From the NCBI RefSeq assembly GCF_002379085.1, contig NZ_NBZW01000017.1, forward strand, positions 1-64,000: DNA of 64,000 bases, in the 5' to 3' direction. The position numbers and the translations under genes are program-made. This DNA is from Polaromonas sp. AET17H-212 (GTDB taxonomy: Bacteria; Pseudomonadota; Gammaproteobacteria; Burkholderiales; Burkholderiaceae_C). Below, in pieces: positions 18,318 through 50,944 of this stretch; the first letter of the stretch is position 1; every line of letters begins with the position of its first letter. Below the pieces are notes generated by a model. That model saw only the letters and a list, made by a program, of their open reading frames with translations, had not been told where the DNA came from and did not search any database.

Positions 18318-18337
18318 CACAACACTCCTTCTTGTCA

Positions 18338-18363: not shown

Positions 18364-18401
18364 AAAAAGTGCAAAAAACTTGCCCGATTGTGCCTTGCGC
18401 T

Positions 18402-18427
18402 GTAACCGCAGCGATGCGGGCTACGAA
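18402..18427 (+). promoter_or_regulatory. SigF-type promoter for the bufferin operon
   Basis: GTAACC at 18402-18407, a spacer of exactly 16 bases and CGAA at 18424-18427 give a perfect GTAACC-N16-CGAA. The bufA1 ATG lies 60 bases further, preceded by TTTAGGAG. Together with the divergent minus-strand copy this explains the 150-base sigF-bufA1 gap. Confidence 0.8.
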
Positions 18428-18486
18428 GTACCAGATAACTACGCATTCGGCGTGGTTACGCTTCAAACATCTTTAGGAGTTTATTC

Positions 18487-18774: not shown

Positions 18775-18802
18775 CCCGGTCACAAGTCGTTATCCCGCTG
18801 CC

Positions 18803-35930: not shown

Positions 35931-35941
35931 GTCGGAAATTA

Positions 35942-36510: not shown

Positions 36511-36540
36511 TTAGACGTGGCGACATATCAATTTCTTACA
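36511..36540 (-). promoter_or_regulatory. ECF-type promoter for receiver-nrtS-ECF-zfHC2 operon
   Basis: On the minus strand TGTAAG (36540-36535), 18 bases and GTCTAA (36516-36511) match four other promoters in the window. It lies about 110 bases upstream of ATG 36403. The -35 elements of this and the divergent arsS promoter stand back to back (CTTACA-N9-TGTAAG). Autoregulation by the ECF factor is inferred. Confidence 0.65.
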
Positions 36541-36549
36541 GGGATCGGC

Positions 36550-36578
36550 TGTAAGAATTTCAATCGAAGTCTGTCTAA
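36550..36578 (+). promoter_or_regulatory. ECF-type promoter for arsS operon
   Basis: TGTAAG at 36550-36555, 17 bases and GTCTAA at 36573-36578 precede the arsS ATG by 26 bases. Downstream, GTCTAACAA-N5-CCATAC is shared exactly with the promoter before the second ECF gene at 50939, strengthening the match. Confidence 0.68.
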
Positions 36579-36604
36579 CAACATAGCCATACCACGGACC
36601 CCCC

Positions 36605-37618
36605 ATGCACGCCACCCTTCCGCTTCTCATCCGCACCAGTTTCCCCGCGCTAAAGCGCCACGTCGTTGAAACTGTCCAAGTCAACCTGGGGTACCGCTGC
36701 AACCAGAGTTGTCTGCATTGCCACGTCAACGCCGGTCCAAACCGTACCGAGGAAATGTCGATCGAGAACATTAACGCCGTCCTCGCTTTTCTGAAGGCAA
36801 ACCCGGAGATCCGGACCTTGGATTTGACTGGCGGGGCGCCGGAGCTGAATCGCCACTTTCGCGCATTGATTGTTGCTGCCCACGCTCAAGGCGTGCGGAT
36901 CATCGATCGCTGCAACCTGACGATTCTCGAAGAGCCCGGACAGGAAGGGCTGGCAGAGTTTTTGGCCGACCACGGTGTAGAAGTCGTGGCTTCGATGCCG
37001 TGTTATCTTGAAGACAATGTCGATCGCCAGCGGGGCAAAGGGACCTTCGACGCCAGCATCCGGGGCTTGCAGCGGCTCAATGCCCTGGGTTACGGCCGGA
37101 TCGACACCGGTCTGACGTTGAACCTCGTCTACAACCCGCAAGGCGCCAGCCTGCCGCCTGACCAGGAGACGCTGGAGCGGGACTACAAGCTGCATTTCGC
37201 CAAGCATTTCGACGTCGTCTTCAACCACTTGTTCACTCTGGCCAACATGCCGATCCAGCGCTTTGGTTCAACGCTGGTATCCAAAGGCTTGTTCAACAGC
37301 TATATGACTCTCCTGCGCAACGCGCATCGTGAAGACAACCTCGACCAGGTGATGTGCCGCAGCCTTGTCAGCGTGGATTGGGAAGGCCATCTATATGACT
37401 GCGACTTCAACCAGCAGCTTGGCTTGCCTATCCGCAACGCCGGAAAATCCCGCCTGCACTTGAGCGAGATCACCGCTGACCGGCTGAAAGGCCAGTCCAT
37501 CCGGGTCGCGGATCACTGTTTCGGCTGTACTGCCGGCCAAGGGTCCAGTTGCGGTGGGTCCCTGGATGCGGCCAAGACGCTGGAACTTGACTACAGCAAC
37601 CAAATATCTTCAATTTAA
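36605..37618 (+). CDS. arsS: ArsS-like radical SAM/Cys-rich domain protein
   Basis: This 337-residue radical SAM enzyme binds its 4Fe-4S cluster with CNQSCLHCHV near residues 31-40. The TGGAPELN block follows. The C-terminal Cys-rich half has VMCRSLVSVDW, LYDCDFNQQLG and HCFGCTAGQGSSCGG. This is the architecture of the ArsS / rSAM-selenodomain family, known in arsenosugar synthesis. No arsM methyltransferase is in the window. Because it shares its promoter type with an operon for Cys-rich peptides, a peptide- or thiol-modifying role is also conceivable. It opens a five-gene run. Confidence 0.85.
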   Translation: MHATLPLLIRTSFPALKRHVVETVQVNLGYRCNQSCLHCHVNAGPNRTEEMSIENINAVLAFLKANPEIRTLDLTGGAPELNRHFRALIVAAHAQGVRIIDRCNLTILEEPGQEGLAEFLADHGVEVVASMPCYLEDNVDRQRGKGTFDASIRGLQRLNALGYGRIDTGLTLNLVYNPQGASLPPDQETLERDYKLHFAKHFDVVFNHLFTLANMPIQRFGSTLVSKGLFNSYMTLLRNAHREDNLDQVMCRSLVSVDWEGHLYDCDFNQQLGLPIRNAGKSRLHLSEITADRLKGQSIRVADHCFGCTAGQGSSCGGSLDAAKTLELDYSNQISSI

Positions 37619-37632
37619 TCGAGGGCGCCGAC

Positions 37633-39030
37633 GTGACAGGACTGCAAGGATTTTTCTTCTGGGGATTTTTGCTGGCATTCGGCATCGTGATGTACATGGT
37701 CGTACCGCGTTCGAAGGACGAAGCCGGCTTTTTCAGCGGCCATGATGCGAATGGCCGTCCCGCATCCGAATGGGCGTTGATGATGAGCATCTTCATCAGC
37801 TGGATCTTCGCCAAATCGGTCACCAATGCAGCCAATCTGGGCGCTACCTATGGCATCGTCGGGGGATTGGCCTATGCCGCCTACTGGCTGTCAATTCCGG
37901 TTGCGGGCGTCGTCATTTACCGTATGCGTACCCGTCAGGGTGCGACAGGCATGGTGCCCTTCCTCATCAGTAAATACGGACGCGGTGCTGCGCTGGCATT
38001 TTCGCTGGCCATCCTGATACGGCTGTTCAATGAAGTCTGGAGCAATACAGCCGTGGTGGGCGGCTATTATGGCGAGAGCGGCTCGGCCGGCTTCATCGGC
38101 TCGGCGCTGTTGTTCACCGCGGCGGTGTTGTTCTACAGCCTCAAGGGCGGGTTGCGCAGCTCGATCTTCAGCGACGTGATCCAGGCGGTCGTGTTCATGC
38201 TGTTTCTCGGCGTTGTTCTGGCCTATGTTCTGCCTTCTCACGCGCCGAGCGATCTACTGTCCCAAGGGACATTTGCGCTGGACTCCGGCGTAGACCTGTT
38301 GCTGGTGGCGCTGCTACAAGCACTGTCCTATCCGTTTCACGACCCGGTTCTGACGGACCGTGGTTTCATCACGCGCGAGAAAACCATGCTCCGGGCATTT
38401 ATCGTGGCAGGTGTACTAGGCTTCCTTGCCATCTTCGCGTTCAGCCTCGTTGGTGTGCACGCGCGCCTGGAAGGTCTCTCTCCAAGCGGAAATGTGCCAG
38501 CGGCGGTCGCTCGCGGCTTGGGCATGGCAGGTTTTTTCGCGATGATCGTGGTGATGGTGACTTCGGCCGGATCGACACTTGACTCCACCTTCACCTCGCT
38601 ATCCAAGCTGGTGGCACGTGAACTCCCTCTGGTGGCCGGGCGCTTGCCCTCGCCCAAGGCGATGACTATCGGTTCGTTGACGATGGTGAGCTTTACATTT
38701 CTCGGAAACCTGCCCATGATCGCGGGAACGGACATTCTCAAAGCCACCACCATCAGCGGCACCATGGTCATCGGACTGGCACCGATCTTCCTGTTTTCAG
38801 GGCGCGTTGGCTATTCGCCCCTGTCGTTTCACCTGTCCTTCTGGATCGGTATCGGCCTTGGCGTGCTTCAAGTACTGGACCTGATTCCACCGACCTGGGC
38901 CATCGGTAGCGGAAAGTATGGCGTATTGCTGGGAACCAATCTCTATGGTTTGGTGCTCTGCACGGTCGCCTTCTTTTTGCCTCTCGCTATCTCACGTTAT
39001 CGTCTTGGCCGCGCTGGAGTCGCAGTATGA
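37633..39030 (+). CDS. Sodium:solute symporter family protein
   Basis: This 465-residue SSS-family transporter uses GTG at 37633. It shows about 13 hydrophobic segments, including WALMMSIFISWIFAKSVTNA and AAYWLSIPVAGVVIYRMRTR; VTSAGSTLDSTFTSLSKL is the family's TM8-like sodium-site region. It lies 15 bases after arsS and overlaps the phosphoesterase gene by ATGA, so it is in the same operon. Symporters of this kind recur in rSAM/selenodomain clusters; the solute is unknown. Confidence 0.85.
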   Translation: MTGLQGFFFWGFLLAFGIVMYMVVPRSKDEAGFFSGHDANGRPASEWALMMSIFISWIFAKSVTNAANLGATYGIVGGLAYAAYWLSIPVAGVVIYRMRTRQGATGMVPFLISKYGRGAALAFSLAILIRLFNEVWSNTAVVGGYYGESGSAGFIGSALLFTAAVLFYSLKGGLRSSIFSDVIQAVVFMLFLGVVLAYVLPSHAPSDLLSQGTFALDSGVDLLLVALLQALSYPFHDPVLTDRGFITREKTMLRAFIVAGVLGFLAIFAFSLVGVHARLEGLSPSGNVPAAVARGLGMAGFFAMIVVMVTSAGSTLDSTFTSLSKLVARELPLVAGRLPSPKAMTIGSLTMVSFTFLGNLPMIAGTDILKATTISGTMVIGLAPIFLFSGRVGYSPLSFHLSFWIGIGLGVLQVLDLIPPTWAIGSGKYGVLLGTNLYGLVLCTVAFFLPLAISRYRLGRAGVAV

Positions 39031-40007
39031 GCGAACCCGGCCGCATCTGCCCGCTGCGGTATCGCTATGGCGCCGATGCCATCGCTCGAGCCGAACCACG
39101 CAAGGCACAAACTCTTTACATCATTGGCGGACTGTATGGCAACATTCCAGCGCTTGATGCCATTGAGGCAATGACAGCAACGGAGACCTCGGCACCCACC
39201 CTGTGCTTCAACGGTGACTTCAACTGGTTCAACGTTGCTAATCGCGATTTCTCCGAGATTAATCTGCGCGTGCTGGCCAACGATGCCATTCTGGGCAATG
39301 TGGAGGCCGAACTGGACGCCTTGCTTGACGACGCTGGCTGTGGCTGCGCCTATCCATCTAGCGTGGACGCTGGGATCGTCGAACGGTCAAACCAGATCCA
39401 CCGCCAACTGAAGACGACGGCAGGACGCCATAAATCGTTGCTCAAGCGCATTTCACAATTGCCGATGTACCTGCGCTACCAGGTAGCTGACTGCCGTATT
39501 GGCATCGTCCACGGTGATGCCGACTCACTCGCGGGCTGGCGATTTGACATCAATGCGCTGGACGAACCGAACGCCTCACCATGGATTCGATCAGCTTTCG
39601 AAAGTGCCGACGTTGACTTGTTCGCGAGCACACATACCTGCTTGCCGGCTATGCGGCATTTCGATATAGCTTCAAACCGCGAGGGCTGGGTGGTCAACAA
39701 TGGCTCCGCCGGCATGCCGAACTTTGCCGGCGATCTGACAGGCCTGTGCACGCGGATATCCACCACGCCATCACCGCATCCGGTTCTGCATGAGATCGAA
39801 ATTGCCGGTGCGTTTGTGGCACTGCTACCCGTGCGTTTCGATGCGGAACGCTGGATCAGCGAATTCCTCATGCAATGGCCGCCTGGCTCGCCAGCCTGGC
39901 TTTCCTATTTTGAGCGCATGACAAAGGGACCGAGCTTCTCCCCCTGTCGGGCAATCGCTCCGACACAACGAGCCACATCCGCCCATAGCCCTGCAAGGAA
40001 CATATGA
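39027..40007 (+). CDS. Calcineurin-like metallophosphoesterase family protein
   Basis: This 326-residue protein resembles the metallophosphoesterase fold: LYIIGGLYGNIPALDAIEAM near residue 30, NGDFNWFN, LGNVEAELD, VHGDADSLAGW and ASTHTCLPAMRHF, then NNGSAGMPNF. These match the DxHGN, GD, GNHE, H and GH-type motifs in altered form. The first motif, GGLYGN, lacks the usual Asp and His, so metal binding may differ. It overlaps both neighbours by four bases, so it is tightly coupled. The substrate is unknown. Confidence 0.75.
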   Translation: MSEPGRICPLRYRYGADAIARAEPRKAQTLYIIGGLYGNIPALDAIEAMTATETSAPTLCFNGDFNWFNVANRDFSEINLRVLANDAILGNVEAELDALLDDAGCGCAYPSSVDAGIVERSNQIHRQLKTTAGRHKSLLKRISQLPMYLRYQVADCRIGIVHGDADSLAGWRFDINALDEPNASPWIRSAFESADVDLFASTHTCLPAMRHFDIASNREGWVVNNGSAGMPNFAGDLTGLCTRISTTPSPHPVLHEIEIAGAFVALLPVRFDAERWISEFLMQWPPGSPAWLSYFERMTKGPSFSPCRAIAPTQRATSAHSPARNI

Positions 40008-40708
40008 TGAATATCAAGGCACTGGCCTTCGACACTGGTGGCACCGTGCTGGACTGGCATGGTGGACTGGTCGCAGCCTTATCTCGCCTCGGCGCGAGCC
40101 ACAACGTGAATCTGGACTGGCATACCATTGTTAATGACTGGCGCCGCCGCGCCATGAAAAGCATCACCGGGCAGACCCAGCCAACGTTCAATATGGACGA
40201 TATTCATCGCCGCACACTGGACGAAACTTTGGCGCATTTCGGTTTGCAGGCCTTCACACAGGCCCAGCGTGATCAGCTTTGGCGAACGTGGCATGAACTA
40301 GATACATGGCCCGACTTTCCGGGGGCGCAGGCAGCGTTGCGAAAATCGTTTCCCGTAGTCTCTTTCACGATGCTCCCGACATCGTTAGTGGTTGATGTGT
40401 CGCGTCGCAACGGTATCGTCTGGGACGCAGTGATCTCCTGCGAAATGATCGGCATCTACAAACCGCATGCACAGGCTTATGCCACGGCTGCGCGTTGGAT
40501 GGCACTTGAACCCGCGCAGATACTGATGGTTGCTTGCCACAATTTCGATCTAAATGCGGCGCACAAAGCCGGGTTTCGTACCGCCTTCGTTCGACGACCC
40601 GACGAATGGGGTCCCAAGGGACCACCCGATCCAGAGCCGAATATGGCCTATGACTTCGTCGAAGACGGGTTCGAAGCGCTGCAGCGCAGCGTGCTCACCA
40701 GTTCATAG
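40004..40708 (+). CDS. Haloacid dehalogenase-like hydrolase
   Basis: This 234-residue HAD protein is close to type II haloacid dehalogenases. Motif I is LAFDTGGTVLDW with the nucleophile Asp. A Thr/Ser motif II lies in FPVVSFTMLPTS, and the cap and core motif EMIGIYKPHAQAYATAA carries the catalytic Lys. Motif III is MVACHNFDLNAAHKAGF. It starts at the stop of the phosphoesterase (ATGATGA). Dehalogenase, phosphatase or phosphonatase activity is possible, and the operon context does not decide between them. Confidence 0.82.
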   Translation: MMNIKALAFDTGGTVLDWHGGLVAALSRLGASHNVNLDWHTIVNDWRRRAMKSITGQTQPTFNMDDIHRRTLDETLAHFGLQAFTQAQRDQLWRTWHELDTWPDFPGAQAALRKSFPVVSFTMLPTSLVVDVSRRNGIVWDAVISCEMIGIYKPHAQAYATAARWMALEPAQILMVACHNFDLNAAHKAGFRTAFVRRPDEWGPKGPPDPEPNMAYDFVEDGFEALQRSVLTSS

Positions 40709-40830
40709 AGAGGCCCCGTCGATCGCATGGGAAAAGCGACTATGCCACCGGTTCGCGTCGGCTCAGGGCGAAAAAATGTTGCCGACGTATACCGCCTAGC
40801 TCACCGGCATCCCCGTGGGCATTCCGGCCG

Positions 40831-41193
40831 ATGACATCGCAAACCATCCATCTCGCCTGCCTCTGCGCGGCGTGGTGCCGCCTGTGCGAAGCCTATGCGC
40901 TCGTTCTAGAGCGTGAGGTAGCCGATCTCGCTTCAAAAGGCACGGCGCTGCGGATGCACTGGATCGACATCGAAGACGAAGTCGAACTCGTCGGAGATGT
41001 TGATGTTGAAACGTTTCCAACAATCATCATTGCGGACCAAGACAATGTGCGTTTTGCCGGTCCGCTGACTCCACATCCTGAGGCCATGCGAAGTTTGTTG
41101 CGCGCCACGATACTCAACGCACCGCCAGACGCACGCTGGCCCGCAGCAGGCCCCGCGATAGACGCGTTCGCGGAGCGGCTACGAACCTGCTGA
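40831..41193 (+). CDS. Thioredoxin-fold protein
   Basis: This 120-residue thioredoxin-like protein has the redox site LCAAWCRLCEAY (CRLC, not CGPC) and the cis-proline block VDVETFPTIIIADQD. There is no signal peptide, so it is cytosolic. It lies 122 bases after the HAD gene and ends the plus-strand arsS run. It may reduce the Cys-rich domain of the radical SAM protein or metal-thiol intermediates; that role is inferred. Confidence 0.8.
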   Translation: MTSQTIHLACLCAAWCRLCEAYALVLEREVADLASKGTALRMHWIDIEDEVELVGDVDVETFPTIIIADQDNVRFAGPLTPHPEAMRSLLRATILNAPPDARWPAAGPAIDAFAERLRTC

Positions 41194-41334
41194 CGAAGCA
41201 TCAAGATTTTCGGATGCCGCAGGCACAGAATGTGCAAAGCCTGGGCAGCCCCTACGCCATTCAGCTATTCCGAAACCTAGGCTGCTGCCCGTGAAGCGAC
41301 TTGACCGCCTCTTCGATTATCTGGCGAAACGGAC

Positions 41335-41733
41335 TCACGGTGCCACAGCAGCTTGGGCCATGCTCTGCAAGGCTTTCGCCAGGTTCCCTGCCGCGGCACA
41401 CGTTGCCACGCCGTGCCGCTTGGCGATATAAGCTGAATCGTTGTAGCCGAGCCAAACCTGCGCCGAGGCGTCTTGCCATACGAGCGCTTTCAGAGGCAGG
41501 TCAATGCCGACGGATTGCGCACATTCGATGAATCGTGTTCCGTCTTGGGGATTTCCGAAAATTAACAGTTCCGTCGATCGCAGGGTCTTCCCGACCTTCG
41601 ACGCGCCCCTTGAGTGATCAATACGGGCAAACACGCTTAAGCCCTTTTGTTTCGCAATCCGCCCATCAGCGGCTACGGCGATCAATGGAGCGAACAGTCA
41701 CGCCAGCACAACGGGTAGGGAGCGAAGCCTCAT
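41335..41733 (-). pseudogene. Exported DUF302 protein with in-frame stop in its signal peptide
   Basis: ATG 41733 opens MRLRSLPVVLA, then TGA at 41700-41698, then LFAPLIAVAADGRIAKQKGL in the same frame. Together they make a normal signal peptide interrupted where a Trp (TGG) would fit. The remaining 115 residues are a DUF302 domain (KTLRSTELLIFGNPQDGTRF, then LPLKALVWQDASAQVWLGYN). Translation from a TTG at 41685 would lack export. It is probably a recent nonsense pseudogene. It lies between the arsS operon and the Cys-rich peptide operon and faces the former. Confidence 0.65.
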
Positions 41734-41861
41734 GGTGCAGCTTTTGTGTGAAACGTTATAAATGATGATGCCGGAAGCAAGCTTTGACTACTTGCCACGC
41801 TTACGTGGCGTGGGCTCAGATGACCAAAAACTGCGCAAATCTGAGCACCCCACAATGCGTG

Positions 41862-42569
41862 TCAGAGACCGCGCACAAACGCCTCGGCTTCCAGGGTATC
41901 GAGATCGGCCGCCCAGTCAATAGGCGTCAGACTCAACACTTCAATCTGATGGTCGTTGAGGGCTTTTTCAAGGTCCGATCGACGGGCAAGCCGCCGATCC
42001 CGCCTGACGAGCAAGTCCTCAATCAGCGGCAGGTACATTCGCACGAACCCCGTCAACCAACGACACGACTGCTCATGCCCGTCAACAGCCTCTGCCACGA
42101 AGCGGTTCACGAACGACATCATGGTCGGCGCGTCCAACCAGTGTCCGTCGGTGACCCAGCGATTGACGGTGAGCAGTCCCACCGGCAGACCGCGCGCGTC
42201 AAGCGAGATGGCAAAAAGGTGGGTCGGTGCGGTGCGGGTCCAGCGGGATTGCCCGGGCCGGAAATACCGGCGCCGTCCTGATGCGGTCGCATGACAGAAC
42301 AGGTGCAGATGGCCATGCTCACGGTCACCGTCGCGATGGGCATGATAGTAGAACTGCGACCCATGCCGCAGGTCAACCACGTCATCTGGTGGGTAGTGGT
42401 CAAATTCGACAACTTCGCGCCCCCCAATCCAGCTTTGAAGCAGGGACCCCGACGCCGACGTGACCTCTGCGAACGCCGATACGCTGTCACGCGCGCTGTT
42501 TAATGCGTTGACGAACTGGGTATCCGAAGCGCCGCTCCAATGGCGCTGGAATGACACGAATGCTTTCAT
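41862..42569 (-). CDS. DUF6969-like protein
   Basis: From ATG 42569 (MKAFVSFQRHWSGASDTQF) the protein has about 235 residues. The core has a His-rich strand pair FYYHAHRDGDREHGHLHLFCH and then HLFAISLDARGLPVGLLTVNRW, with a helical C-terminus (RWLTGFVRMYLPLIEDLLVRRD). This looks like the DUF6969 family, of unknown role; the histidines suggest metal binding. It is last in the doxX/Cys-rich peptide operon, 58 bases after the second peptide gene. It could be a metal-dependent enzyme or chaperone for these peptides. The family call is from memory. Confidence 0.6.
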   Translation of the reverse strand: MKAFVSFQRHWSGASDTQFVNALNSARDSVSAFAEVTSASGSLLQSWIGGREVVEFDHYPPDDVVDLRHGSQFYYHAHRDGDREHGHLHLFCHATASGRRRYFRPGQSRWTRTAPTHLFAISLDARGLPVGLLTVNRWVTDGHWLDAPTMMSFVNRFVAEAVDGHEQSCRWLTGFVRMYLPLIEDLLVRRDRRLARRSDLEKALNDHQIEVLSLTPIDWAADLDTLEAEAFVRGL

Positions 42570-42627
42570 AGGGGAACGCCGGGTATCGCTGCCCTCGCAA
42601 GCGGGAATATGAGGCGACAACAGTCAA

Positions 42628-42822
42628 CTACTTCTTGACTGCACAGGCCCCACATTTGGCCTTGCAAGCGCCGCACTTGCCTTTGCAGGCCCCGCACTTC
42701 TGCATCATTCCGCCGGCGCCGCACTTCTTCGCTCCGCATGTCATCGCACAGCCACCCAGGGCGGCAGCAGTCACCACTGCTGTTGCAAGGGTTCGAGTCA
42801 ATGTCGAAGAAAGAGATTTCAT
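42628..42822 (-). CDS. Cysteine-rich exported peptide with KCGAC repeats (copy 2)
   Basis: The 64-residue peptide starts at 42822 six bases after AGGAGC. The N-terminus (MKSLSSTLTRTLATAVVTAA) and ALGGC form a signal peptide with a possible lipobox (LGGC, Cys25). The mature part has nine cysteines (25, 29, 34, 43, 46, 50, 53, 57, 60) and three near-perfect KCGAC units spaced by two residues, ending AVKK. The pattern recalls HvfA/bufferin-type metallophore precursors with repeated KCG motifs. No MNIO gene is adjacent. Its sister gene lies 34 bases upstream. Metal binding is inferred. Confidence 0.78.
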   Translation of the reverse strand: MKSLSSTLTRTLATAVVTAAALGGCAMTCGAKKCGAGGMMQKCGACKGKCGACKAKCGACAVKK

Positions 42823-42856
42823 GGTTAGCTCCTATACGTGTAGTGTTGAAAGTTGC

Positions 42857-43108
42857 TTATTTTTTTGCCGCGCAGGCGCCGCACTTTGCTTTGCATGCAC
42901 CGCACTTCGCCTTGGCTTTGGCTTTGGCTTTGGTCGTCGCCTTGGTTTTATCTCCGCTTGCCTTGCAGGCGCCGCACTTCGTGGCTGATTGCTTCGGCCC
43001 ACACTTGGCGCCGGCGCACGTAGCGGCGATGACGTTGCCGCCCATGGCTGCGGCCGTTACGACGGCCGAGGCCAAGACTTTGCCAAGGGTGGATGAAAGA
43101 TTGCTCAT
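42857..43108 (-). CDS. Cysteine-rich exported peptide with KCGAC repeats (copy 1)
   Basis: The 83-residue peptide starts at 43108 after CGGAGAT. Its signal peptide (MSNLSSTLGKVLASAVVTAA to about VIAA) is nearly the same as in the sister peptide. The mature part has eight cysteines (31, 36, 45, 48, 69, 72, 76, 79), three KCGAC units and a Lys/Ala linker (KAKAKAKAK). Both genes look like a duplication with a diverged middle. The second gene of the doxX operon. HvfA-like precursors are modified by DUF692 enzymes; here the enzyme is missing locally. A metal- or electrophile-trapping role is inferred. Confidence 0.8.
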   Translation of the reverse strand: MSNLSSTLGKVLASAVVTAAAMGGNVIAATCAGAKCGPKQSATKCGACKASGDKTKATTKAKAKAKAKCGACKAKCGACAAKK

Positions 43109-43271
43109 GGATATCTCCGGTGGGTTGATGGAAAACGTGTCAGAACTGCCACCGAGCGAGTGCAGCGGTGCGGGTAAGCTCGGCTCATGCAGAGCACGAT
43201 CCGAGGCTTGGTTGGGGAGCAGCCATGCGGGTATGCACAGCCACGGAACAGCAGTGCGCGATGCGCCGCCA

Positions 43272-43820
43272 TCAATGGGCCTGCGCCCGGCGAGACGCCA
43301 GCCAGTGGTCCAGGGAAAGCGCGCCTGGACCACGCGCTATCAGATAAAGAAGCACCGCGGCCCAGGTCCCGTGAGTCGCATAGGCACCGGGGTAGACAAA
43401 GACCTGAATCACCAGCGTCATACCCAGCAACGCCAGGGCAGAAAAACGCGTACCCAGACCGACCAGAATCAGCAGCGGAAGCAGGTGTTCTGCGAAAGCT
43501 GCCATGGGTGCAGCGAGTTCGGGCGGAACGAGTGGCAACCTGTATTCGTCCTGGAACAACGCCACGGCCGAATCCGATAGTCGAGGCCAGCCAATGGAGA
43601 ACTCACCGGTGACGAGGTTGATCACAAGCCCTTCAATCTTGGTCTGCCCCGAATTCCAGAACACCGCGGCAATCGAAAATCGAGCGATGAAAGCGACAAA
43701 GGTATTCGGGATGCGTTCGAATACGCTTGTCGCGGTATCAACGATACGCGTCAGAGAGGAGGCATTGATTTGTGCAGCGCCCGCCGATGCCGAGGTCGCG
43801 CGTGAAGCGGTGGTGTTCAT
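43272..43820 (-). CDS. DoxX-family membrane protein (copy 2)
   Basis: This 182-residue protein has a soluble N-terminus of about 38 residues and four hydrophobic segments ([51 protein letters not shown] and WAAVLLYLIARGPG). It is clearly paralogous to the DoxX closing the bufferin operon, including EYRLPLVPPELAA and [18 protein letters not shown]. It is first in the operon with the two Cys-rich peptides and the DUF6969-like gene. The ECF-type promoter lies about 200 bases upstream. HvfX-type function in metallophore systems is suggested but unproven. Confidence 0.88.
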   Translation of the reverse strand: MNTTASRATSASAGAAQINASSLTRIVDTATSVFERIPNTFVAFIARFSIAAVFWNSGQTKIEGLVINLVTGEFSIGWPRLSDSAVALFQDEYRLPLVPPELAAPMAAFAEHLLPLLILVGLGTRFSALALLGMTLVIQVFVYPGAYATHGTWAAVLLYLIARGPGALSLDHWLASRRAQAH

Positions 43821-44016
43821 GAGGACAGTCTCCGGGGTAGATGAAGTAACTACGAGAAACCGAGTAGATCGCGACTCTCGTGGCTAATAGACGATGGCTG
43901 CGGCCGCGGCCTTACAGGTCAGTCGAACAATTCCCTTCGGAATCAATGAAATCGGAAAATCAGGTAGCCCGATACGTATTTGGGCTTCCTGGATTCGCCG
44001 AGGTTTACACGTCGAT
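43821..44016 (-). other. Long leader of the doxX/Cys-rich peptide operon
   Basis: About 190 bases separate the predicted -10 element from the doxX ATG on the minus strand. I see no convincing small gene in it. It may be an untranslated leader; no known riboswitch is recognised. Confidence 0.4.
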
Positions 44017-44045
44017 TTAGACGGGTGACCGCAGGGTTCCTTACA
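44017..44045 (-). promoter_or_regulatory. ECF-type promoter for doxX/Cys-rich peptide operon
   Basis: On the minus strand TGTAAG (44045-44040), 17 bases and GTCTAA (44022-44017) match the promoters of both ECF operons and arsS. It is divergent from a plus-strand copy 22 bases away; together they form an apparent foldback. Confidence 0.65.
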
Positions 44046-44066
44046 GGAACTACCGTCGTTACTACG

Positions 44067-44095
44067 TGTAAGAAATCCCCCCGAAATACGTCTAT
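44067..44095 (+). promoter_or_regulatory. ECF-type promoter for TVP38-reductase operon
   Basis: TGTAAG at 44067-44072, 17 bases and GTCTAT at 44090-44095 precede ATG 44145 by 50 bases. The last -10 base differs (T instead of A) from the other four copies. Confidence 0.6.
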
Positions 44096-44144
44096 ACATT
44101 GGCAAATAGGCGATTGTCTTGCCGCAAAAAAAAAGGCTCTTGAG

Positions 44145-46292
44145 ATGCGTCCAAACAAGCGTTGGTGGTTACTGGTGGTTTTGGCCTTGCTGCTGAGCCT
44201 ATTTTTTGCGTTCGACCTCGAACGCTTTCTCAGCCTGAGCACCATCAAGGCCAGCCAATCGGATCTGCAGTCCTGGAGAGCCGGACAGCCATTGCTGGCC
44301 GCGGTCTTGTTCTTTGTGGCTTATGTGACTGCTGCGGCGCTGTCGCTGCCTGGGGCTGCGGTGATGACACTGGCTGCTGGGGCATTGTTCGGCCTCGGCT
44401 GGGGCGCATTAATTGTTTCCTTTGCCTCCACGATTGGCGCGACGCTAGCCTTCCTGGCTTCGCGCTGGCTGCTGGGCTGCTGGGTACAGTCGCGCTTCGG
44501 CGAACGCCTTGCCGCGCTCAATGCAGGAATCGCCAAAGATGGCGGCTTCTATCTGTTCACGCTGCGCCTGGTGCCAGTTTTGCCGTTTTTTGTGATCAAC
44601 CTGGCCATGGGCGTTACAGCCCTGCGCACCTGGACCTTCTACTGGGTCAGCCAGGTCGGCATGCTTGCCGGTACGCTGGTTTACGTCAACGCCGGCACAC
44701 AGTTGGCACGCGTCGAATCGCTTTCGGGCGTCGTCTCGCCCGGTGTGCTTGGCTCGTTGGCATTGTTGGGGATTTTCCCAATCGTCGCAAAAAAACTGAC
44801 CGACATCTTTCAGGCTCGAAAAGTCTATGCCCATTGGCCACGGCCTAAGAGCTTTGACCGCAACCTGGTGGTTATCGGAGGAGGCTCGGCAGGCCTTGTC
44901 ACGGCTTACATCGCCGCAGCAATCAAGGCTAAAGTTACCCTGGTCGAAAAGCACGCTATGGGCGGCGACTGTTTGAATACCGGTTGTGTCCCGTCCAAGG
45001 CGCTAATCCGATCTGCCAAGTTTCTGTCCCACGTTCAGCGCGCCCGGGAGTTCGGCATGCGCTCAGCCATCGCCGACTTCGACTTCCGCGAGGTCATGGA
45101 GCGCGTGCAGCGCGTGATCAAGGAGATCGAACCACACGACTCGGTGGAGCGTTACACCAATCTCGGCGTGGATGTGGCCCAAGGGTCGGCGCAAATCATT
45201 TCGCCCTGGGAGGTGGAAATCACCCACCTTGACGGTCGAAGGCAGCGTCTGACCACGCGCGCGATTGTTATCGCGGCCGGCGCCCGGCCGTTTGTGCCGC
45301 AGATCCCCGGCATTGACCTGGTCGAAGTGTTGACCTCCGACAACGTCTGGAATCTGCGCCAGCTTCCCGAACGGCTGGTCGTTCTGGGAGGCGGTCCGAT
45401 CGGCAGCGAGCTGACACAGACGTTCGCTCGCCTCGGTTCCAAAGTGACGCAAGTTGAGATGGCAGCGCGCATCCTGCTTCGCGAGGACCCGGAAGTGTCG
45501 GATCTGGTTACCGCCCGTTTCCACGCGGAAGGCATCAATGTGCTGGTCGAACACAAGGCAGAACGGGTCGAAGTGCTTAACGGCGAGAAACAACTTGTCG
45601 CGACATACCGCGGCGAGGAAATTCGTATTCCCTTTGACAGCCTGCTGGTGGCTGTGGGTCGCGTGGCCAACCTCGAAGGCTATGGGCTGAAGGAGCTCGG
45701 CGTCACGACCGGACGCACAGTGGAGGTCAATGGCTACCTGCAGACAAATTTCCCCAACATCTATGCCGCCGGCGACGTGGCTGGTCCCTACCAGTTCACC
45801 CACACCGCCGCCCATCAGGCATGGTACGCAGCCGTCAACGCCCTGTTCGATCCGTTCAAGAAATTTCGGGCTGACTACCGCGTTATTCCGTGGGCTACCT
45901 TTGTCGAACCCGAAGTGGCTCGCGTCGGCCTCAATGAACTCGAGGCCAAGGAAAAAGGCGTGGCATATGAGGTCACGATTTATGGCCTGGATGATCTTGA
46001 TCGAGCCATTGCAGACAATGAGGCGCACGGCTTTGTGAAAGTTCTGACCGTGCCCGGCAAAGACCGCATACTCGGCGTCACCATAGCCGGTGCGCATGCT
46101 GGCGACCTGCTGGCCGAGTGGGTACTGGCCATGAAGCATGGCATTGGTCTGAACAAGATCCTCGGCACCATCCATACCTACCCGACGTTGGCCGAGGCCA
46201 ACAAGTATGTTGCCGGCAACTGGAAGCGCGCCCACGCGCCGCGAAAGTTGCTGGCTTGGGTCGAGCGCTTCCATGCCTGGCGACGTACCTGA
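44145..46292 (+). CDS. TVP38/TMEM64 membrane domain fused to FAD disulfide reductase
   Basis: Starting at 44145 (MRPNKRWWLLVVLALLLSLFF, AAAGG upstream) the chain has about 715 residues. Residues 1 to about 220 are a TVP38/TMEM64 (SNARE-associated) membrane domain with AAALSLPGAAVMTLAAGALF and GGFYLFTLRLVPVLPFFVIN. From about 230 on follows a mercuric-reductase-like flavoprotein: VVIGGGSAGLVTAYIAAAIK, the redox pair GGDCLNTGCVPSKALIRSA, VVLGGGPIGSELTQTFARLG and IHTYPTLAEANKYV. It would put a dithiol reductase at the inner face of the membrane. It lacks the HMA and C-terminal CC of MerA. It opens the second ECF-promoted operon. Confidence 0.88.
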   Translation: MRPNKRWWLLVVLALLLSLFFAFDLERFLSLSTIKASQSDLQSWRAGQPLLAAVLFFVAYVTAAALSLPGAAVMTLAAGALFGLGWGALIVSFASTIGATLAFLASRWLLGCWVQSRFGERLAALNAGIAKDGGFYLFTLRLVPVLPFFVINLAMGVTALRTWTFYWVSQVGMLAGTLVYVNAGTQLARVESLSGVVSPGVLGSLALLGIFPIVAKKLTDIFQARKVYAHWPRPKSFDRNLVVIGGGSAGLVTAYIAAAIKAKVTLVEKHAMGGDCLNTGCVPSKALIRSAKFLSHVQRAREFGMRSAIADFDFREVMERVQRVIKEIEPHDSVERYTNLGVDVAQGSAQIISPWEVEITHLDGRRQRLTTRAIVIAAGARPFVPQIPGIDLVEVLTSDNVWNLRQLPERLVVLGGGPIGSELTQTFARLGSKVTQVEMAARILLREDPEVSDLVTARFHAEGINVLVEHKAERVEVLNGEKQLVATYRGEEIRIPFDSLLVAVGRVANLEGYGLKELGVTTGRTVEVNGYLQTNFPNIYAAGDVAGPYQFTHTAAHQAWYAAVNALFDPFKKFRADYRVIPWATFVEPEVARVGLNELEAKEKGVAYEVTIYGLDDLDRAIADNEAHGFVKVLTVPGKDRILGVTIAGAHAGDLLAEWVLAMKHGIGLNKILGTIHTYPTLAEANKYVAGNWKRAHAPRKLLAWVERFHAWRRT

Positions 46293-46301
46293 AGACACAT
46301 C

Positions 46302-47372
46302 ATGATCCGTACCTCAAACCCCACCGTCTATCTTGACCTGCCGCCCGGCGCAGGACACAGTGCGCTACGAACCGCCCTGATGGCCATGCGGGTGGTTCCG
46401 CTCGCATTTCCGAAGGGAAAGGACGAGTACGTTGCCGCACTCCACAGCCTAGCTGACCTGCCCGCCATGGTGGCCTTCGTCGATATTTCGCATACGGATG
46501 AATCGCAATCGCACACACTGCCCCAATTGGAGGCCTTGCTTCCGGCCACCCTAGCCCGTCAGCAAATTTTTCTCACGCGGCTAGCTGGCGGCCACGTGAG
46601 CGAAGGCGACGTCCGATGGGCGAAAGCACTCGGTTTTGCTGATCTTCTGTGCGATCTGGAGGTGCAAAACGGCAAAGGTTCACTGCGCAAAGCCGTCGAT
46701 GCCGTTGCGAACGTATTCTCACTGCCTCGTATATCATCAGGTGAACTGGTGATATACGCGCGACCGATGATCGAGGTCACAAGTGTTCCTACACCGCGCG
46801 CCGTTATTCGGTCCCTCACGGGTTTGGGCGCCGAGCATGTGGCAACACTGCTTGGCGAGTCGCTGAATATCGTTGATCGGACCTACCATCTAAAGACATA
46901 CTCACATTGTTTTGTCGGATCTGACGCAGTCATCTGGCTAGGTGAAAAATTCAAGCGATCACGCAAAGAGGCACTGGCGATTGGCCAGGCACTCCTGGCT
47001 TTGGGATTGATCGCCCATGTCACGGGTGACCACCCTTTTCTCGATGATCGCCTGTTTTATCACCTCGCTGTTTCTGAGCTGGCGGATCAATTGCATCTGG
47101 GCCTGATCTTCGACGGGTTGCGTGGGCCCCGTGGTGTTCCAGTGGCCGACAGAAGTTATTTGGGCAAAACTTATCACCGTTGCTGGATCGGAGCCGAAGC
47201 GGCAGATCTTCTGGTGAAACAACATGGCGTCACAAGACATGATGCGTGGATACTGCTGCATCGTCTGATGCAGTTCGGCCTCATCGAGCACGTCACCCGC
47301 TCAAGACCTTTGATAGACGGGGCATTTTTTTACCGTTTCATCGGTTTTCCCATCAAAAGGGAGCAATCGTGA
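46302..47372 (+). CDS. Protein with receiver-like domain and two DEP domains
   Basis: In this 356-residue protein residues 1 to about 150 look like a receiver-type alpha/beta domain (LADLPAMVAFVDISHTDE, then QQIFLTRLAGGHVSEGDVRWAKALGFADLL). Two DEP domains follow, near 190-250 (YSHCFVGSDAVIWLGEKFKR, then EALAIGQALLALGLIAHVTG) and 285-350 (YHRCWIGAEAADLLVKQHGV, then AWILLHRLMQFGLIEHV). DEP domains mostly mediate membrane or receptor contacts in eukaryotic signalling. It lies nine bases after the reductase and overlaps the DUF547 gene. A signalling or membrane-docking role is inferred. Confidence 0.8.
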   Translation: MIRTSNPTVYLDLPPGAGHSALRTALMAMRVVPLAFPKGKDEYVAALHSLADLPAMVAFVDISHTDESQSHTLPQLEALLPATLARQQIFLTRLAGGHVSEGDVRWAKALGFADLLCDLEVQNGKGSLRKAVDAVANVFSLPRISSGELVIYARPMIEVTSVPTPRAVIRSLTGLGAEHVATLLGESLNIVDRTYHLKTYSHCFVGSDAVIWLGEKFKRSRKEALAIGQALLALGLIAHVTGDHPFLDDRLFYHLAVSELADQLHLGLIFDGLRGPRGVPVADRSYLGKTYHRCWIGAEAADLLVKQHGVTRHDAWILLHRLMQFGLIEHVTRSRPLIDGAFFYRFIGFPIKREQS

Positions 47373-48211
47373 CCAAGCGATTGAACGTACCGGGGCGACG
47401 TGCCCTGCTCACCGCTCTGCCTCTGCTTCTGCTGGCTGGTTTCCATGCTCCGGCAGTCCATGCTGCGTTCGACCACGGCCACCGGGACTGGGACGCCTTG
47501 CTCAAGCAGCATGTTGTGGTGGCGCCCGGCGGAAACGCATCAACCCTGAGGTATGCCGGCCTGCAAGCCCGACGCAATGAGCTACGTGCTTACTTGGCCA
47601 GCCTTTCTGCCGTATCGACCCGGGAATATGGTGCTTGGACTGGTCCCCAACAACTGGCATTTCTGGCCAATGCCTACAACGCCTACACCGTCGAACTGGT
47701 TCTCACGCGGTATCCAGACCTTCAATCGATCAGGGATTTGGGTGGTCTGCTGCAGAGCCCCTGGAAGAAGAAGTTTTTCCGCTTGTTGGAACAGGAGCGA
47801 TCACTCGATGAGCTCGAGCATGGGATGATTCGCGCGCCAGGCATTTTTGACGACCCGCGCATTCACGCGGCCATGGTCTGCGCCTCGATCGGCTGCCCGA
47901 TGCTGCGCAATGAGGCGTTTGTGGCCGAACGGCTTGACGCCCAGCTTGACGATGCCTTGCGGCGCTTTCTGTCCGATCGTTCCCGCAACCGCTTCGATGG
48001 TACCACCGGCACGCTCGCTGTTTCGAAGATCTTCGACTGGTACCGCAGGGATTTCGAGCAGGGACACAAGGGTTACGATTCACTGCAGGCGGTGTTCGCC
48101 CGGCACGCTGATTCACTGGCCAACACACCGCAAACACAGGGCGACGTTCGCGCGGGCCGCTATAAGCTGGCCTTTCTAAACTACGACTGGGCGCTCAATG
48201 ATGTTCGCTGA
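47369..48211 (+). CDS. DUF547 exported protein
   Basis: GTG 47369 follows AAGGGAG and overlaps the upstream stop (GTGA). The protein of about 280 residues has a signal peptide (RRALLTALPLLLLAGFHAPAVHAA) and a DUF547 domain: QQLAFLANAYNAYTVELVLTRYP, then HGMIRAPGIFDDPRIHAAMVCASIGCPML and KIFDWYRRDF. The Cys-His pattern (Cys in CASIGCP, conserved His) gives DUF547 proteins a papain-like look, but activity is unproven. DUF547 genes recur beside rSAM/selenodomain genes. Confidence 0.88.
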   Translation: MTKRLNVPGRRALLTALPLLLLAGFHAPAVHAAFDHGHRDWDALLKQHVVVAPGGNASTLRYAGLQARRNELRAYLASLSAVSTREYGAWTGPQQLAFLANAYNAYTVELVLTRYPDLQSIRDLGGLLQSPWKKKFFRLLEQERSLDELEHGMIRAPGIFDDPRIHAAMVCASIGCPMLRNEAFVAERLDAQLDDALRRFLSDRSRNRFDGTTGTLAVSKIFDWYRRDFEQGHKGYDSLQAVFARHADSLANTPQTQGDVRAGRYKLAFLNYDWALNDVR

Positions 48212-48232
48212 GCGTAAACGGAACGAACACCC

Positions 48233-49024
48233 ATGACAGCCATCATCGACAGCATTTTCGGGTGGATCGGCGACCGGCTAAGTCGCTACCTGAGCCAAAC
48301 CCATCCTACGCGAAGCTTGGCCGTGCCTACAGATCCGGTCATGCTGATGGCCTGCCTGAAACCAGGTGACGTTGTGCTGATCGAAGGGCAGACCCGCGTC
48401 AGCGTTGCGATCAAGTACCTGACCCAGTCGACTTGGTCGCACGCCGCACTGTACGTAGGCAACGCCAGCGGGCTCGTCGATGGACTGGGTCAGCCTCGCT
48501 GCTTTCTGGAGGCGGACATCCGCGAAGGTGTGCGGGTCGTCAGCGTGGCGGAATTCACAGGTTTGCATTGCCGTGTGTGCCGGCCAATTGGACTGAATGA
48601 CGTTGAGATCAATGCCTTGATTCACTTCGTGCTGGCTCGCCTGGGCCACCGCTACGATCTGAAGAATGTGTTTGACTTGGCGCGCTATCTCTTGCCGACG
48701 CCGCCCGTTCCGGTGCGATGGCGCCGCCGCATGCTGGCACTTGGCAGCGGGGATCCCACTCGGGCCATCTGCTCTACTCTGATTGCCCAAGCCTTCCAGT
48801 CCGTGCGCTACCCCATTCTGCCGCTCATCGAAACCGTGCCGTCCAAAGATCCGACGTGCCTCGGCTGCATGGACGAAATCCTGTGGGTACGCCACCACAG
48901 CCTGTTCGTGCCGCGTGATTTCGACGTCTCGCCATACTTCTGCGTGATCAAGCCCATGCTGGCGATGAATTTTGATCATCGTCAGCTGACGTGGAACGAA
49001 GACGCGAACAAGGAGTTCGCATGA
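48233..49024 (+). CDS. YiiX/YebB-like permuted papain-fold hydrolase
   Basis: This 263-residue protein has no signal peptide but an amphipathic start (MTAIIDSIFGWIGDRLSRYL). The NlpC/P60-like permuted core has LKPGDVVLIEGQTRVSVAIKYL, the His-containing STWSHAALYVG and the Cys-containing RAICSTLIAQAFQSV. This order (His before Cys) is that of YiiX/YebB-type circularly permuted enzymes acting on lipid or acyl bonds. It overlaps the glycosyltransferase remnant by four bases. The substrate is unknown. Confidence 0.82.
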   Translation: MTAIIDSIFGWIGDRLSRYLSQTHPTRSLAVPTDPVMLMACLKPGDVVLIEGQTRVSVAIKYLTQSTWSHAALYVGNASGLVDGLGQPRCFLEADIREGVRVVSVAEFTGLHCRVCRPIGLNDVEINALIHFVLARLGHRYDLKNVFDLARYLLPTPPVPVRWRRRMLALGSGDPTRAICSTLIAQAFQSVRYPILPLIETVPSKDPTCLGCMDEILWVRHHSLFVPRDFDVSPYFCVIKPMLAMNFDHRQLTWNEDANKEFA

Positions 49025-49203
49025 GACTGACGCTTTGCATCATCGTATCGGTGCTCGATGAAGCCGAATCGCCAACCCGGCGTTTGCATAACCGGGGCGC
49101 ACTTCAGACAATTGTGAATGGCGGCAACCAGGCATTGTGGGGGGTGGATGCATCTGCCGATCTGGCACGCTTGGGCGCCATCGAGCCAGGTACGTCCGTA
49201 TGA
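49021..49203 (+). pseudogene. rSAM/selenodomain-associated glycosyltransferase, remnant
   Basis: A 60-codon frame reads MRLTLCIIVSVLDEAESPTR and then loses likeness, ending at TGA 49201-49203. The first 17 residues match the start of family-2 transferases of the TIGR04283 type that accompany rSAM/selenodomain genes (MxLSIIVPVLNEA). The remaining catalytic region, about 200 residues, is deleted. The ends overlap both neighbours (ATGA at each side), so the remnant still keeps the operon translationally linked. Confidence 0.55.
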
Positions 49204-50315
49204 AGCGGCTCGTGTTGCTCGGTGGTGGACACGCACATGTCAAGGTGCTGGCCGAACTGGCTAGGCGGCCACTGGTCGGATGGGATGTCCACCTTGTGTC
49301 ACCGTATCGGCGCCAGATCTACTCGGGCATGCTACCGGGCTGGGTGGCGGGACACTACCCGATCGAGTCATGTGCTATCAATCTCAACACCCTCGCGGCA
49401 GATGCTCGCGTCGCGTTTCACGAAACCACCGGAGCGGGAGTCTCCCCAGCCATCAACGAAATCTCGTGCTCAGATGGCACCCGCCTGCGTTTCGATCTGC
49501 TGTCCATCGACACCGGTTCGCTGCCGGCCATCGACCAGTTGCCAGGCAGCCTCGAACATGCGCTGCCGATTCGGCCTATCGAGGAATTCGTGTCGGCCTG
49601 GCCAGGTATCGTGGACCGAATGCTCAGCCGTTGCCGACGTTTCGATCTTGTGATCCTGGGTGCAGGTGCTGCTGGTGTGGAACTGGCATTCGCCATTCAG
49701 TATCGCGCCATGGTTGACGGATGGTCACATCTGCGTATCACCCTCGTCGGCTCGGGAGCGCTTCCGTTGGACGGGGGGCCAGTGCGGCAGCGTCAACAGG
49801 CGGCCAACTTGCTTATGCAACGTGGCGTGGCATGGCAAGCGGAGCGTCGGGCAGTAGAAATCTCCACTGACCATATCAACTTCGAACAAGGGCTCCCGCT
49901 TGGCTTCGATGCTTGCTTTGTCGTTACCGGCGCCGCTGCACCCACCTGGGTTCGCGCTAGCGGCCTGGCCACCAATGAGCGTGGGTTCATCCGTGTTGGG
50001 CCCACTCTGCAAAGCGTGTCCCACCCGCAGATCTTTGCCGCGGGCGACGTGGCAGCCTATGCGGACAACAGGCCGAAGTCCGGGGTGTTCGCGGTCAAGG
50101 CGGGCCCGGTGCTGGCCGACAACCTGAGAGCGGTTTGCGAAGGGCGGTTACCCCGCCGCTGGACACCTCAAACACGGGCGCTCTATCTCATCAGCACAGG
50201 GAATCGATATGCCATCGCCTCGTGGGGTCCTTGGGCTTGGGGTGGTGCGTGGGTCTGGTACTGGAAAGACCGAATTGACCGGGGCTTTATGCGCCGCTTT
50301 GGTACGGACGCCTGA
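49200..50315 (+). CDS. NDH2-like pyridine nucleotide-disulfide oxidoreductase (selenide-dikinase-associated type)
   Basis: Starting at 49200 (MKRLVLLGGGHAHVKVLAEL) the flavoprotein has about 371 residues. It has FAD motif LGGGHAHV, the YRRQIYSGMLPGWVAGHY block, NAD motif LVILGAGAAGVELAFAIQYR and FAAGDVAAYADNRPKSGVFA. This is the family often fused or adjacent to selenophosphate synthase (TIGR03169-like). There is no redox-active CxxC, so it probably transfers electrons to a quinone or partner protein. It overlaps the glycosyltransferase remnant by ATGA and ends the operon. Confidence 0.85.
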   Translation: MKRLVLLGGGHAHVKVLAELARRPLVGWDVHLVSPYRRQIYSGMLPGWVAGHYPIESCAINLNTLAADARVAFHETTGAGVSPAINEISCSDGTRLRFDLLSIDTGSLPAIDQLPGSLEHALPIRPIEEFVSAWPGIVDRMLSRCRRFDLVILGAGAAGVELAFAIQYRAMVDGWSHLRITLVGSGALPLDGGPVRQRQQAANLLMQRGVAWQAERRAVEISTDHINFEQGLPLGFDACFVVTGAAAPTWVRASGLATNERGFIRVGPTLQSVSHPQIFAAGDVAAYADNRPKSGVFAVKAGPVLADNLRAVCEGRLPRRWTPQTRALYLISTGNRYAIASWGPWAWGGAWVWYWKDRIDRGFMRRFGTDA

Positions 50316-50404
50316 ACATGGCGAAGTACGCGTCAACGAAAAGGTGACGCTTTCGCGCTAATAGGACCAGGACCGAAGCACCGGACGCCTAGCCGATTTT
50401 GTCA

Positions 50405-50431
50405 GCGACACACTCGAACGGAGTGTGTCGC
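50405..50431. terminator. Convergent hairpin between the oxidoreductase and DUF4148-like genes
   Basis: GCGACACACTC and GAGTGTGTCGC form a perfect 11-bp stem with a five-base loop, between two convergent genes. Neither strand has a clear T-run after it, so termination strength is uncertain. Confidence 0.55.
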
Positions 50432-50452
50432 CAACATTGGGTGCCATTGCGC

Positions 50453-50743
50453 TTAGATCGCGCTGGCTTCACCGGACGGGATTTGGCCAAGGCGAAGGGC
50501 TTGGGCGGTTTGCGCTCGCACAGCTGCACGGTCCAGACTTGAACGGATCGGCGACACGCGGGATCCAGCCGGCTCATTGCTGCGCTTGCGCATCGCTTGA
50601 GCAGCCTCGGCCACGACTTCAGCGCGCACCCGGCTGCTCTGGAATGCCTTGGTGTATTCAGGCGCTACGGCATCGTCTGCCTGGACCCCGGCTGAGAAGA
50701 GGACCGCCAATGCAGCGACTGCAAAGATGCGATTTGATTTCAT
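50453..50743 (-). CDS. Small exported DUF4148-like protein
   Basis: This 96-residue protein starts at 50743 after AAAGGA. The signal peptide is MKSNRIFAVAALAVLFSAGV, cleaved after VQA. The mature part is charged and helical (SSRVRAEVVAEAAQAMRKRSN, then RAAVRAQTAQALRLGQIPSGE), the look of DUF4148 proteins common in Burkholderiales and of unknown function. It is divergent from the second ECF operon and shares its intergenic region. No ECF-type promoter is visible on its strand. Confidence 0.72.
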   Translation of the reverse strand: MKSNRIFAVAALAVLFSAGVQADDAVAPEYTKAFQSSRVRAEVVAEAAQAMRKRSNEPAGSRVSPIRSSLDRAAVRAQTAQALRLGQIPSGEASAI

Positions 50744-50914
50744 GATGATTTCCTTTGTGAGGTTGAACTGAAGATTTAAATGAACTGCAGCGCTCATAGC
50801 GTCACAGTCACAACCTTGGTCGGACCAAATCAGGAAAACGTGACAAGACCAGACAAAAACCTTTAAAACAACAGGGGATTTCAGGAAACTTCAGAAGAAG
50901 ATCCTGTCGGCGGA

Positions 50915-50944
50915 TGTAAGGCAAGGTGGAGGTTTGTCGTCTAA
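50915..50944 (+). promoter_or_regulatory. ECF-type promoter for second ECF operon
   Basis: TGTAAG at 50915-50920, 18 bases and GTCTAA at 50939-50944 precede ATG 51001 by 56 bases. GTCTAACAA-N5-CCATAC is identical in layout to the arsS promoter. Confidence 0.66.

Follow-up and report, generated by a model that had tools for sequence, protein, structure and literature searches.

The contig NZ_NBZW01000017.1 of Polaromonas sp. AET17H-212 contains, within the 64,000-nucleotide (nt) stretch that we analysed (positions 1 to 64,000; hereafter the window), six copies of the motif TGTAAG-N17/18-GTCTAW, distributed over both strands. These sites very probably are promoters for extracytoplasmic function (ECF) sigma factors of the TIGR02943 type, the kind known from Neisseria sigma-E/MseR and Haemophilus RpoE2/HrsE, and the genes behind them would act as one thiol/metal defence; we take the Neisseria and Haemophilus sigma factors to be TIGR02943 members as well. 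Each of the six is oriented toward an operon start, at a distance that we measured from the -10 element to the ATG taken as the gene start. P1 (TGTAAG-N18-GTCTAA; 36511..36540, minus strand) lies 107 nt from the ATG at 36403 of an operon encoding a receiver-like protein, NrtS, the sigma factor ECF1 and its anti-sigma factor, and P2 (TGTAAG-N17-GTCTAA; 36550..36578, plus strand), divergent from P1, lies 26 nt from the arsS ATG at 36605. Upstream of doxX (ATG at 43820) stand a distal site, P3 (44017..44045, minus strand; 196 nt), and a proximal one, P4 (TGTAAG-N18-GTCTAT; 43887..43916, minus strand; 66 nt). P5 (44067..44095, plus strand), divergent from P3, precedes the ATG at 44145 of the TVP38-reductase operon by 49 nt, and P6 (50915..50944, plus strand) precedes the ATG of the second sigma factor, ECF2, at 51001 by 56 nt. 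The initial annotation of this DNA had listed five copies, all at their correct coordinates and strands and, as it stated, at sensible distances before a gene. It had overlooked P4, which therefore gives doxX tandem sites and raises the copies ending in GTCTAT from the one that it had counted to two.

The motif is confined to this region. With gaps of 16-19 nt, the whole genome (4,646,864 bases, 86 contigs) contained the same six copies and nothing further, and the reversed-pattern control gave 0 matches. All six lie inside one 14.5-kb stretch; a random scatter over the genome, which the initial annotation had named as the result that would speak against its regulon, was not seen. The relaxed pattern TGTAA-N17-19-GTCTA again found only these six in the genome (its control, 7). 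None of 100 dinucleotide-preserving shuffles of the window contained the motif, and a simple estimate from base composition predicts 0.78 matches for the genome and 0.01 for the window.

A motif copy precedes each of two ECF operons. ECF1 (35022..35651, minus strand) and ECF2 (51001..51639, plus strand) matched TIGR02943 with 245.1 and 186.4 bits, respectively (cut-off 162.2). Their partners, anti-sigma 1 (34816..35028, minus strand) and anti-sigma 2 (51636..51890, plus strand), each encoded directly downstream, are short proteins of the zinc-binding anti-sigma (ZAS) type and matched NF052368 (antisigmaE) with 67.2 and 55.6 bits (cut-off 50). Anti-sigma 1 (MLSCKE...MHLMMCTGC) has Cys4, His30, Cys34, and Cys37, and so does anti-sigma 2, provided that it starts at the second Met. 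Both are zf-HC2/antisigmaE proteins, and neither is an NrsF-type membrane anti-sigma factor. There might be two regulons, with all six sites read by a single ECF or divided between the two. ECF1 and ECF2 share only 41 percent identity and have separate anti-sigma factors; moreover, GTCTAACAA-N5-CCATAC, which the initial annotation had noticed in two copies, is indeed common to the arsS site (P2) and the ECF2 site (P6), and the downstream CAA-N5-CCATAC is not found at the other four. Against this, the six sites agree in core and spacing, and one of them stands before each ECF operon; we consider such an arrangement possible, if on balance doubtful.

The six copies share the two hexamers and the 17/18-nt spacing, with unrelated spacer sequences. 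The GTAAG core at this spacing is present at 6 of 6 sites, and the -10 context is CGTCTA at five (TGTCTA at P2) and CGTCTAA at three. In the excerpts of the cited papers on which this and all following comparisons with published systems draw, the Neisseria sigma-E promoter is given as GTMAGBWTT, 12-13 nt, CGTCTAAH, and the window sites resemble it in the -35 core GTAAG, the -10 element CGTCTAA and an equal spacing (PMC2893595). Instead of an ECF promoter, the motif might be a dispersed repeat or be bound by a different regulator, and P1/P2 and P3/P5 do stand back to back in divergent intergenic regions, as operators would. However, the hexamers and spacing are fixed while the spacers are unrelated, the direction of the site agrees with that of the gene in all six cases, core and spacing equal the published sigma-E consensus (PMC2893595), and 25 of 27 matches in relatives fall at gap 16 or 17 (see below), which leaves this explanation very little probability.

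The motif in related genomes

We picked comparative loci (labelled L) by ECF homology, regardless of the motif. Eighteen are from the same order and 23 are the best of 80 named loci, L235-L291 (E 3e-34 or worse) being excluded from the motif count. As L122 and L222 overlap, these 41 loci represent 40 distinct ones, and among them TGTAAG-CG[AT]CTA occurred in 25 copies at gaps 16 (17 copies) and 17 (8 copies). Twelve other gaps between 10 and 23 gave two copies in total, and the reversed control gave 0. Eleven of the 25 sites precede a recognised gene of the module described below. The third -10 position was A (CGACTA) in 22 and T in 3; T forms were found before the ECF gene of a Marinomonas (L229) and, without gene assignment, in a Rodentibacter locus (L231).

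The order to which Polaromonas belongs mainly uses the CGACTA form. TGTAAG-N16/17-CGACTAA was present in 41 of 300 genomes of the order. An ECF1-like sigma factor (E up to 1.3e-20) occurs in 130 of the 300, and 39 of these have the motif, against 2 of the other 170 (p 6e-14; genome lists compiled by eye). Of the 63 genomes that the reversed control matched, 28 were ECF-positive (p 0.89), so that the control shows no link with the ECF. This comparison with relatives having the same ECF, which the initial annotation had suggested, ties the motif to this ECF type. Among 86 congeners, four (counted by eye) had one CGTCTA match apiece, with no cluster.

Several observations weigh against our reading. 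The operon extents rest on gene spacing, and the BWTT extension of the published Neisseria -35 element is only partly matched at the window sites. No seventh site exists genome-wide, and msrAB, which was not itself searched for, can therefore have no such site here, in contrast to its role as a direct target in Haemophilus and in Neisseria, of which it is the best-known target. Relatives mostly have A where the window has T at the third -10 position, and for 10 of their 25 sites no recognised module gene could be assigned, with 4 more lying within the ECF gene. We looked for a sigma residue that decides between T and A and rejected the idea, as none separated the 5 T-users from the 11 A-users among 16 sequences. 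Across the 300 genomes of the order, the raw forward and reversed totals were alike by eye; the evidence is therefore the association with the ECF and not the raw count. We also rejected CGTCTA as an order-wide marker of the regulon, since it occurred in 26 of the 300 genomes, by eye not above the control, in a search of gaps 17-18 that left gap 16 outside and is hence a partial test. A third ECF of the clade, on contig C29 and adjoining an MNIO gene, could cross-talk with the six sites. With the corrections made in this text, the interpretation of the motif as marking an ECF regulon is supported, and control by ECF1 and/or ECF2 is what we infer.

As a separate observation, TGTAAG-N16/17-CG[AT]CTA lies inside the region 4.2 codons of 5 of 57 ECF genes of the clade (L094, L096, L101, L110, and L220; one gene is counted twice); synonymous shuffling predicts 0.06, with a maximum of 2 over 2000 shuffles (relatedness uncorrected). 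Such an internal site is possibly a promoter reading into the anti-sigma gene.

Genes downstream of the six sites

Judged from gene spacing, 19 genes would stand under the six sites, or 20 counting a thioredoxin-like gene at 40831; the figure of about 18 in the initial annotation was slightly low. The P1 operon begins with the receiver-like protein (35942..36403, minus strand; likely start MALEKRI), which matched no Pfam or NCBIfam model, so that its earlier label as a receiver has no support there; homologues adjoin FAD/nrtS/ECF genes in L121, L133, and L135. The NrtS-like small membrane protein (35652..35945, minus strand; NF038050, 29.1 bits, cut-off 25) belongs to the same operon. On the plus strand, P2 faces the genes for an ArsS-type radical S-adenosylmethionine protein (36605..37618; TIGR04167, 449.7 bits, cut-off 300), a sodium:solute symporter-like protein (37633..39030; PF00474, 18.6 bits, below the cut-off of 22.8), a protein without known family (39027..40007; no Pfam or NCBIfam match, phosphoesterase-like by eye only) whose homologue adjoins arsS in L314, and a haloacid dehalogenase (HAD) type II-like protein (40004..40708; TIGR01428, 129.7 bits, cut-off 125.4). 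The thioredoxin-like gene (40831..41193, plus strand; PF00085, E 1.6e-5) is a possible extra member.

The doxX operon, on the minus strand, encodes an HvfX-like DoxX (43272..43820; PF07681; NF050144, 45.8 bits, below the cut-off of 80), the Cys-rich peptides A (42857..43108; KCGACKAKCGAC) and B (42628..42822), and a DUF6969 protein (41862..42569; PF22308, E 9.4e-56) with the invariant YHxH...EHGHxHxF. Both peptides are predicted from their N-termini to be secreted, and no NCBIfam model matched either. DoxX and a Cys-rich peptide had been recognised before, with the second peptide and DUF6969 omitted. On the plus strand, the P5 operon encodes a TVP38/VTT domain fused to a MerA-like disulfide oxidoreductase (44145..46292), a double DEP-domain protein (46302..47372), a DUF547 protein (47369..48211), a C92 papain-like peptidase (48233..49024), and an FAD oxidoreductase of the Nterm_to_SelD type (49200..50315; TIGR03169, 368.6 bits, cut-off 310).

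A conserved module and its origin

Genes that are joined in the window by the motif only are physical neighbours in other genomes. In the 40 distinct ECF loci, the neighbours included an anti-sigma factor (38 loci), DoxX and MNIO (14 each), the TVP38-reductase (12), arsS, C92, FAD, and nrtS genes (8 each), the receiver-like and HAD proteins (3 each), and DUF547 (2). L314, from the same family, has in a single stretch the genes for C92, a PNP_UDP_1 phosphorylase, a DUF2282 peptide, MNIO, DUF2063, DoxX, a KCGAC-type peptide, DUF6969, the unknown-family protein, ArsS, NrtS, ECF, and anti-sigma factor, all confirmed by Pfam. Its ECF shares 61 percent identity with ECF1, and the site TGTAAG-N16-CGTCAAA stands before its arsS. 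That the module genes are adjacent elsewhere, and compactly so in L314, strongly supports one functional set.

The gene set was likely acquired as an island. Among the 86 congeners, no ECF exceeds 49 percent identity to ECF1; the G + C content of the window drops from ~0.61 to ~0.58 beyond 32 kb; and on the far side of the island, at 57259-58767, a phage-type integrase with Arm-DNA-bind_2 is encoded. The same three facts would suit P1-P6 being unused remnants on transferred DNA, with the third ECF on contig C29 as the native system. We regard this as improbable, because the six cores and the frames of both sigma and both anti-sigma factors are intact and a genome of the same family (L314) retains the module. 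The segment 53748-58767 encodes an AAA ATPase, a 637-aa protein without Pfam match and the integrase.

Comparison with known systems

Neisseria sigma-E (NMB2144) and MseR (NMB2145), encoded in the operon NMB2140-2145, resemble the window in pairing an ECF with a short ZAS anti-sigma factor that has the same Cys/His positions. The Neisseria operon is autoregulated and includes a DoxX-like protein, and the direct regulon is very small (PMC2893595, PMC3240639); the window, with a site before both ECF operons and a doxX operon, would be alike in these respects. The zinc residues of meningococcal MseR are Cys4, His30, Cys34, and Cys37 (PMC2893595). Neisseria differs in having one such sigma factor, whose direct targets are msrAB and one operon (PMC2893595, PMC3240639), whereas the window has two sigma factors, six sites and 19-20 genes. 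Beyond the Neisseria genes described in those excerpts, it has arsS, the TVP38-reductase, DEP, DUF547, C92, FAD oxidoreductase, and DUF6969. A sigma-E/MseR-type regulon that has been enlarged, with its sigma factor duplicated, is supported. A small RNA has been linked to sigma-E in Neisseria (PMC3240639), and transcription of one from P3 is therefore possible; the ~100 nt between P3 and P4 (43917-44016) contain no convincing gene.

The Haemophilus influenzae RpoE2/HrsE system likewise has a ZAS anti-sigma factor (67 aa) and a DoxX-containing cluster; it is induced by HOCl and H2O2 and controls a DoxX/periplasmic peptide/UPF0276/DUF2063 cluster (PMC7907618). It differs in that RpoE2 controls its own gene only to a very limited extent, unlike our reading of the window, and in that the excerpt of the report does not mention ArsS, the TVP38-reductase or DUF6969 (PMC7907618).

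Secreted Cys peptides together with DoxX are also found in the MNIO-made bufferin/EGKCG metallophore clusters (PMC12452194, PMC13097082). The word DUF6969 is absent from the main text of the work on the landscape of MNIO clusters (PMC12452194, PMC13097082). L314 resembles bufferin clusters in its row of DUF2282 peptide, MNIO, DUF2063, DoxX, Cys peptide, and DUF6969, whereas the window doxX operon is without MNIO or DUF2063 and with DUF6969. Because MNIO and its partner are not in the operon, we do not class it as an MNIO peptide cluster. A genome-wide PF05114 search found MNIO at window positions 18821-19603 and on contig C29 only; the nearest MNIO gene is thus 22-24 kb from the doxX operon, in a sigma-F/NrsF-type cluster. 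This cluster (17131-20418), separate from the regulon, contains an NrsF/sigma-F-type ECF pair (17131-18338), a Buf1-type peptide assigned by eye (18487-18774), MNIO, and DUF2063. We assume that Cupriavidus GigPABT corresponds to DUF2282/MNIO/DUF2063/DoxX. The gigPABT operon, induced by Cu and Au, resembles the window as a bufferin-kind operon beside an ECF gene, that of RpoQ/RsqA, and differs in that RsqA is predicted to be membrane bound and that RpoQ control of gig was assumed and not shown (PMC10304878).

As a mechanism, we propose that an oxidant, a thiol-reactive metal or hypochlorous-acid stress would oxidise the Cys/His zinc site of the anti-sigma factor, which would free the sigma factor to start its own operon, in positive feedback, and the other operons. 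The products would act together as a thiol/metal defence, in which DoxX and DUF6969 might help to mature or load the secreted Cys-rich peptides and a membrane-anchored disulfide reductase, the FAD oxidoreductase, ArsS, and small redox proteins would also take part. A sigma factor known mainly from small direct regulons of Neisseria and Haemophilus would then govern an island of ~20 genes in another lineage, and TGTAAG-N16/17-CG[AT]CTA would serve as a one-line motif for reading the regulon in other genomes. ArsS, the TVP38-reductase, and DUF6969 would thereby join the copper/HOCl-linked Cys peptides in a shared stress response, and several unknown families would become candidates that can be tested for a part in handling thiols, sulfur or copper in the periplasm.

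DUF6969 and the Cys-repeat peptides

The link between DUF6969 and Cys-repeat peptides is the newest part of this work and the one most worth following. DUF6969 was found in 20 of 185 genomes of the class and 20 of 398 of the phylum, the genome studied here being counted in both. An alignment of 14 DUF6969 sequences has the invariant motifs YHxH and EHGHxHxF, a later His, and NxWV, and these His-rich motifs suggest a metal site. We found no mention of DUF6969 in the literature searched, nothing joining three or more of ArsS, TVP38, sigma factor, and DoxX, and 0 results on NPCAAKNPC-type repeats. A DUF6969 profile search of solved structures gave only E values of 4.2 or worse, and a single-sequence structure model, with a mean predicted local distance difference test score of 36.4, was not interpreted.

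At 29 of 41 DUF6969 loci, a secreted-type Cys-repeat open reading frame lies within 900 bp on the same strand, upstream in 28, and the same wider peptide rule was satisfied at 30 of 980 random anchors; this rule was written after both sets of loci had been seen, and the comparison is descriptive. An earlier rule, fixed after the first set and before the second, found a peptide at 9 of 20 new loci vs 19 of 1720 random anchors. In both comparisons some loci are related (L309-L311 are from one genus) and the anchors are random positions elsewhere and not matched genes. Among the 12 misses, L135 has a peptide gene ~1 kb away, L296 has one 1.3 kb off on the opposite strand (in L317), the peptide of L302 fails the N-terminus rule, and L137 and L301 are near contig ends. 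The repeats of this peptide class are of the types NPCAAK, SPCGL, KCGAC, GCC, and CAAC.

DUF6969 loci often contain rhodanese or YeeE-type genes. Across 45 DUF6969 stretches, in which five places appear twice, 15 carry a two-domain rhodanese and 10 a Sulf_transp protein. Eight (7 places) have a SoxA/TsdA-like cytochrome with fused NPC repeats, 3 an ECF1-like sigma factor at 47-61 percent identity, 1 a more distant ECF, and 2 MNIO. L136 has CGACTA sites before its second peptide gene, which is followed by DUF6969, and before its MNIO gene. From these neighbourhoods, DUF6969 may be a candidate maturation or sulfur-loading partner of the Cys-repeat peptides. We lean modestly toward a broader proposal, in which it would be an unrecognised metalloprotein partner that matures, or loads sulfur onto, secreted Cys-repeat peptides of a broad class. 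It would work beside MNIO in some clusters and without it in most, accompanied by rhodanese and YeeE-type sulfur import in many, and would be under sigma-E-type control in the window.

The genome studied here has two DUF6969 genes. The second, on contig C1 (393798-394370; L115), has the gene for a secreted-type peptide with NPCAA repeats before it and a rhodanese gene after it. A recurring row of Sulf_transp, short peptide, DUF6969, and rhodanese genes is seen in L144-L151 and L312, the peptide not being found in L146; this peptide carries [IV]DHT[RS]H plus SPC/NPC repeats.

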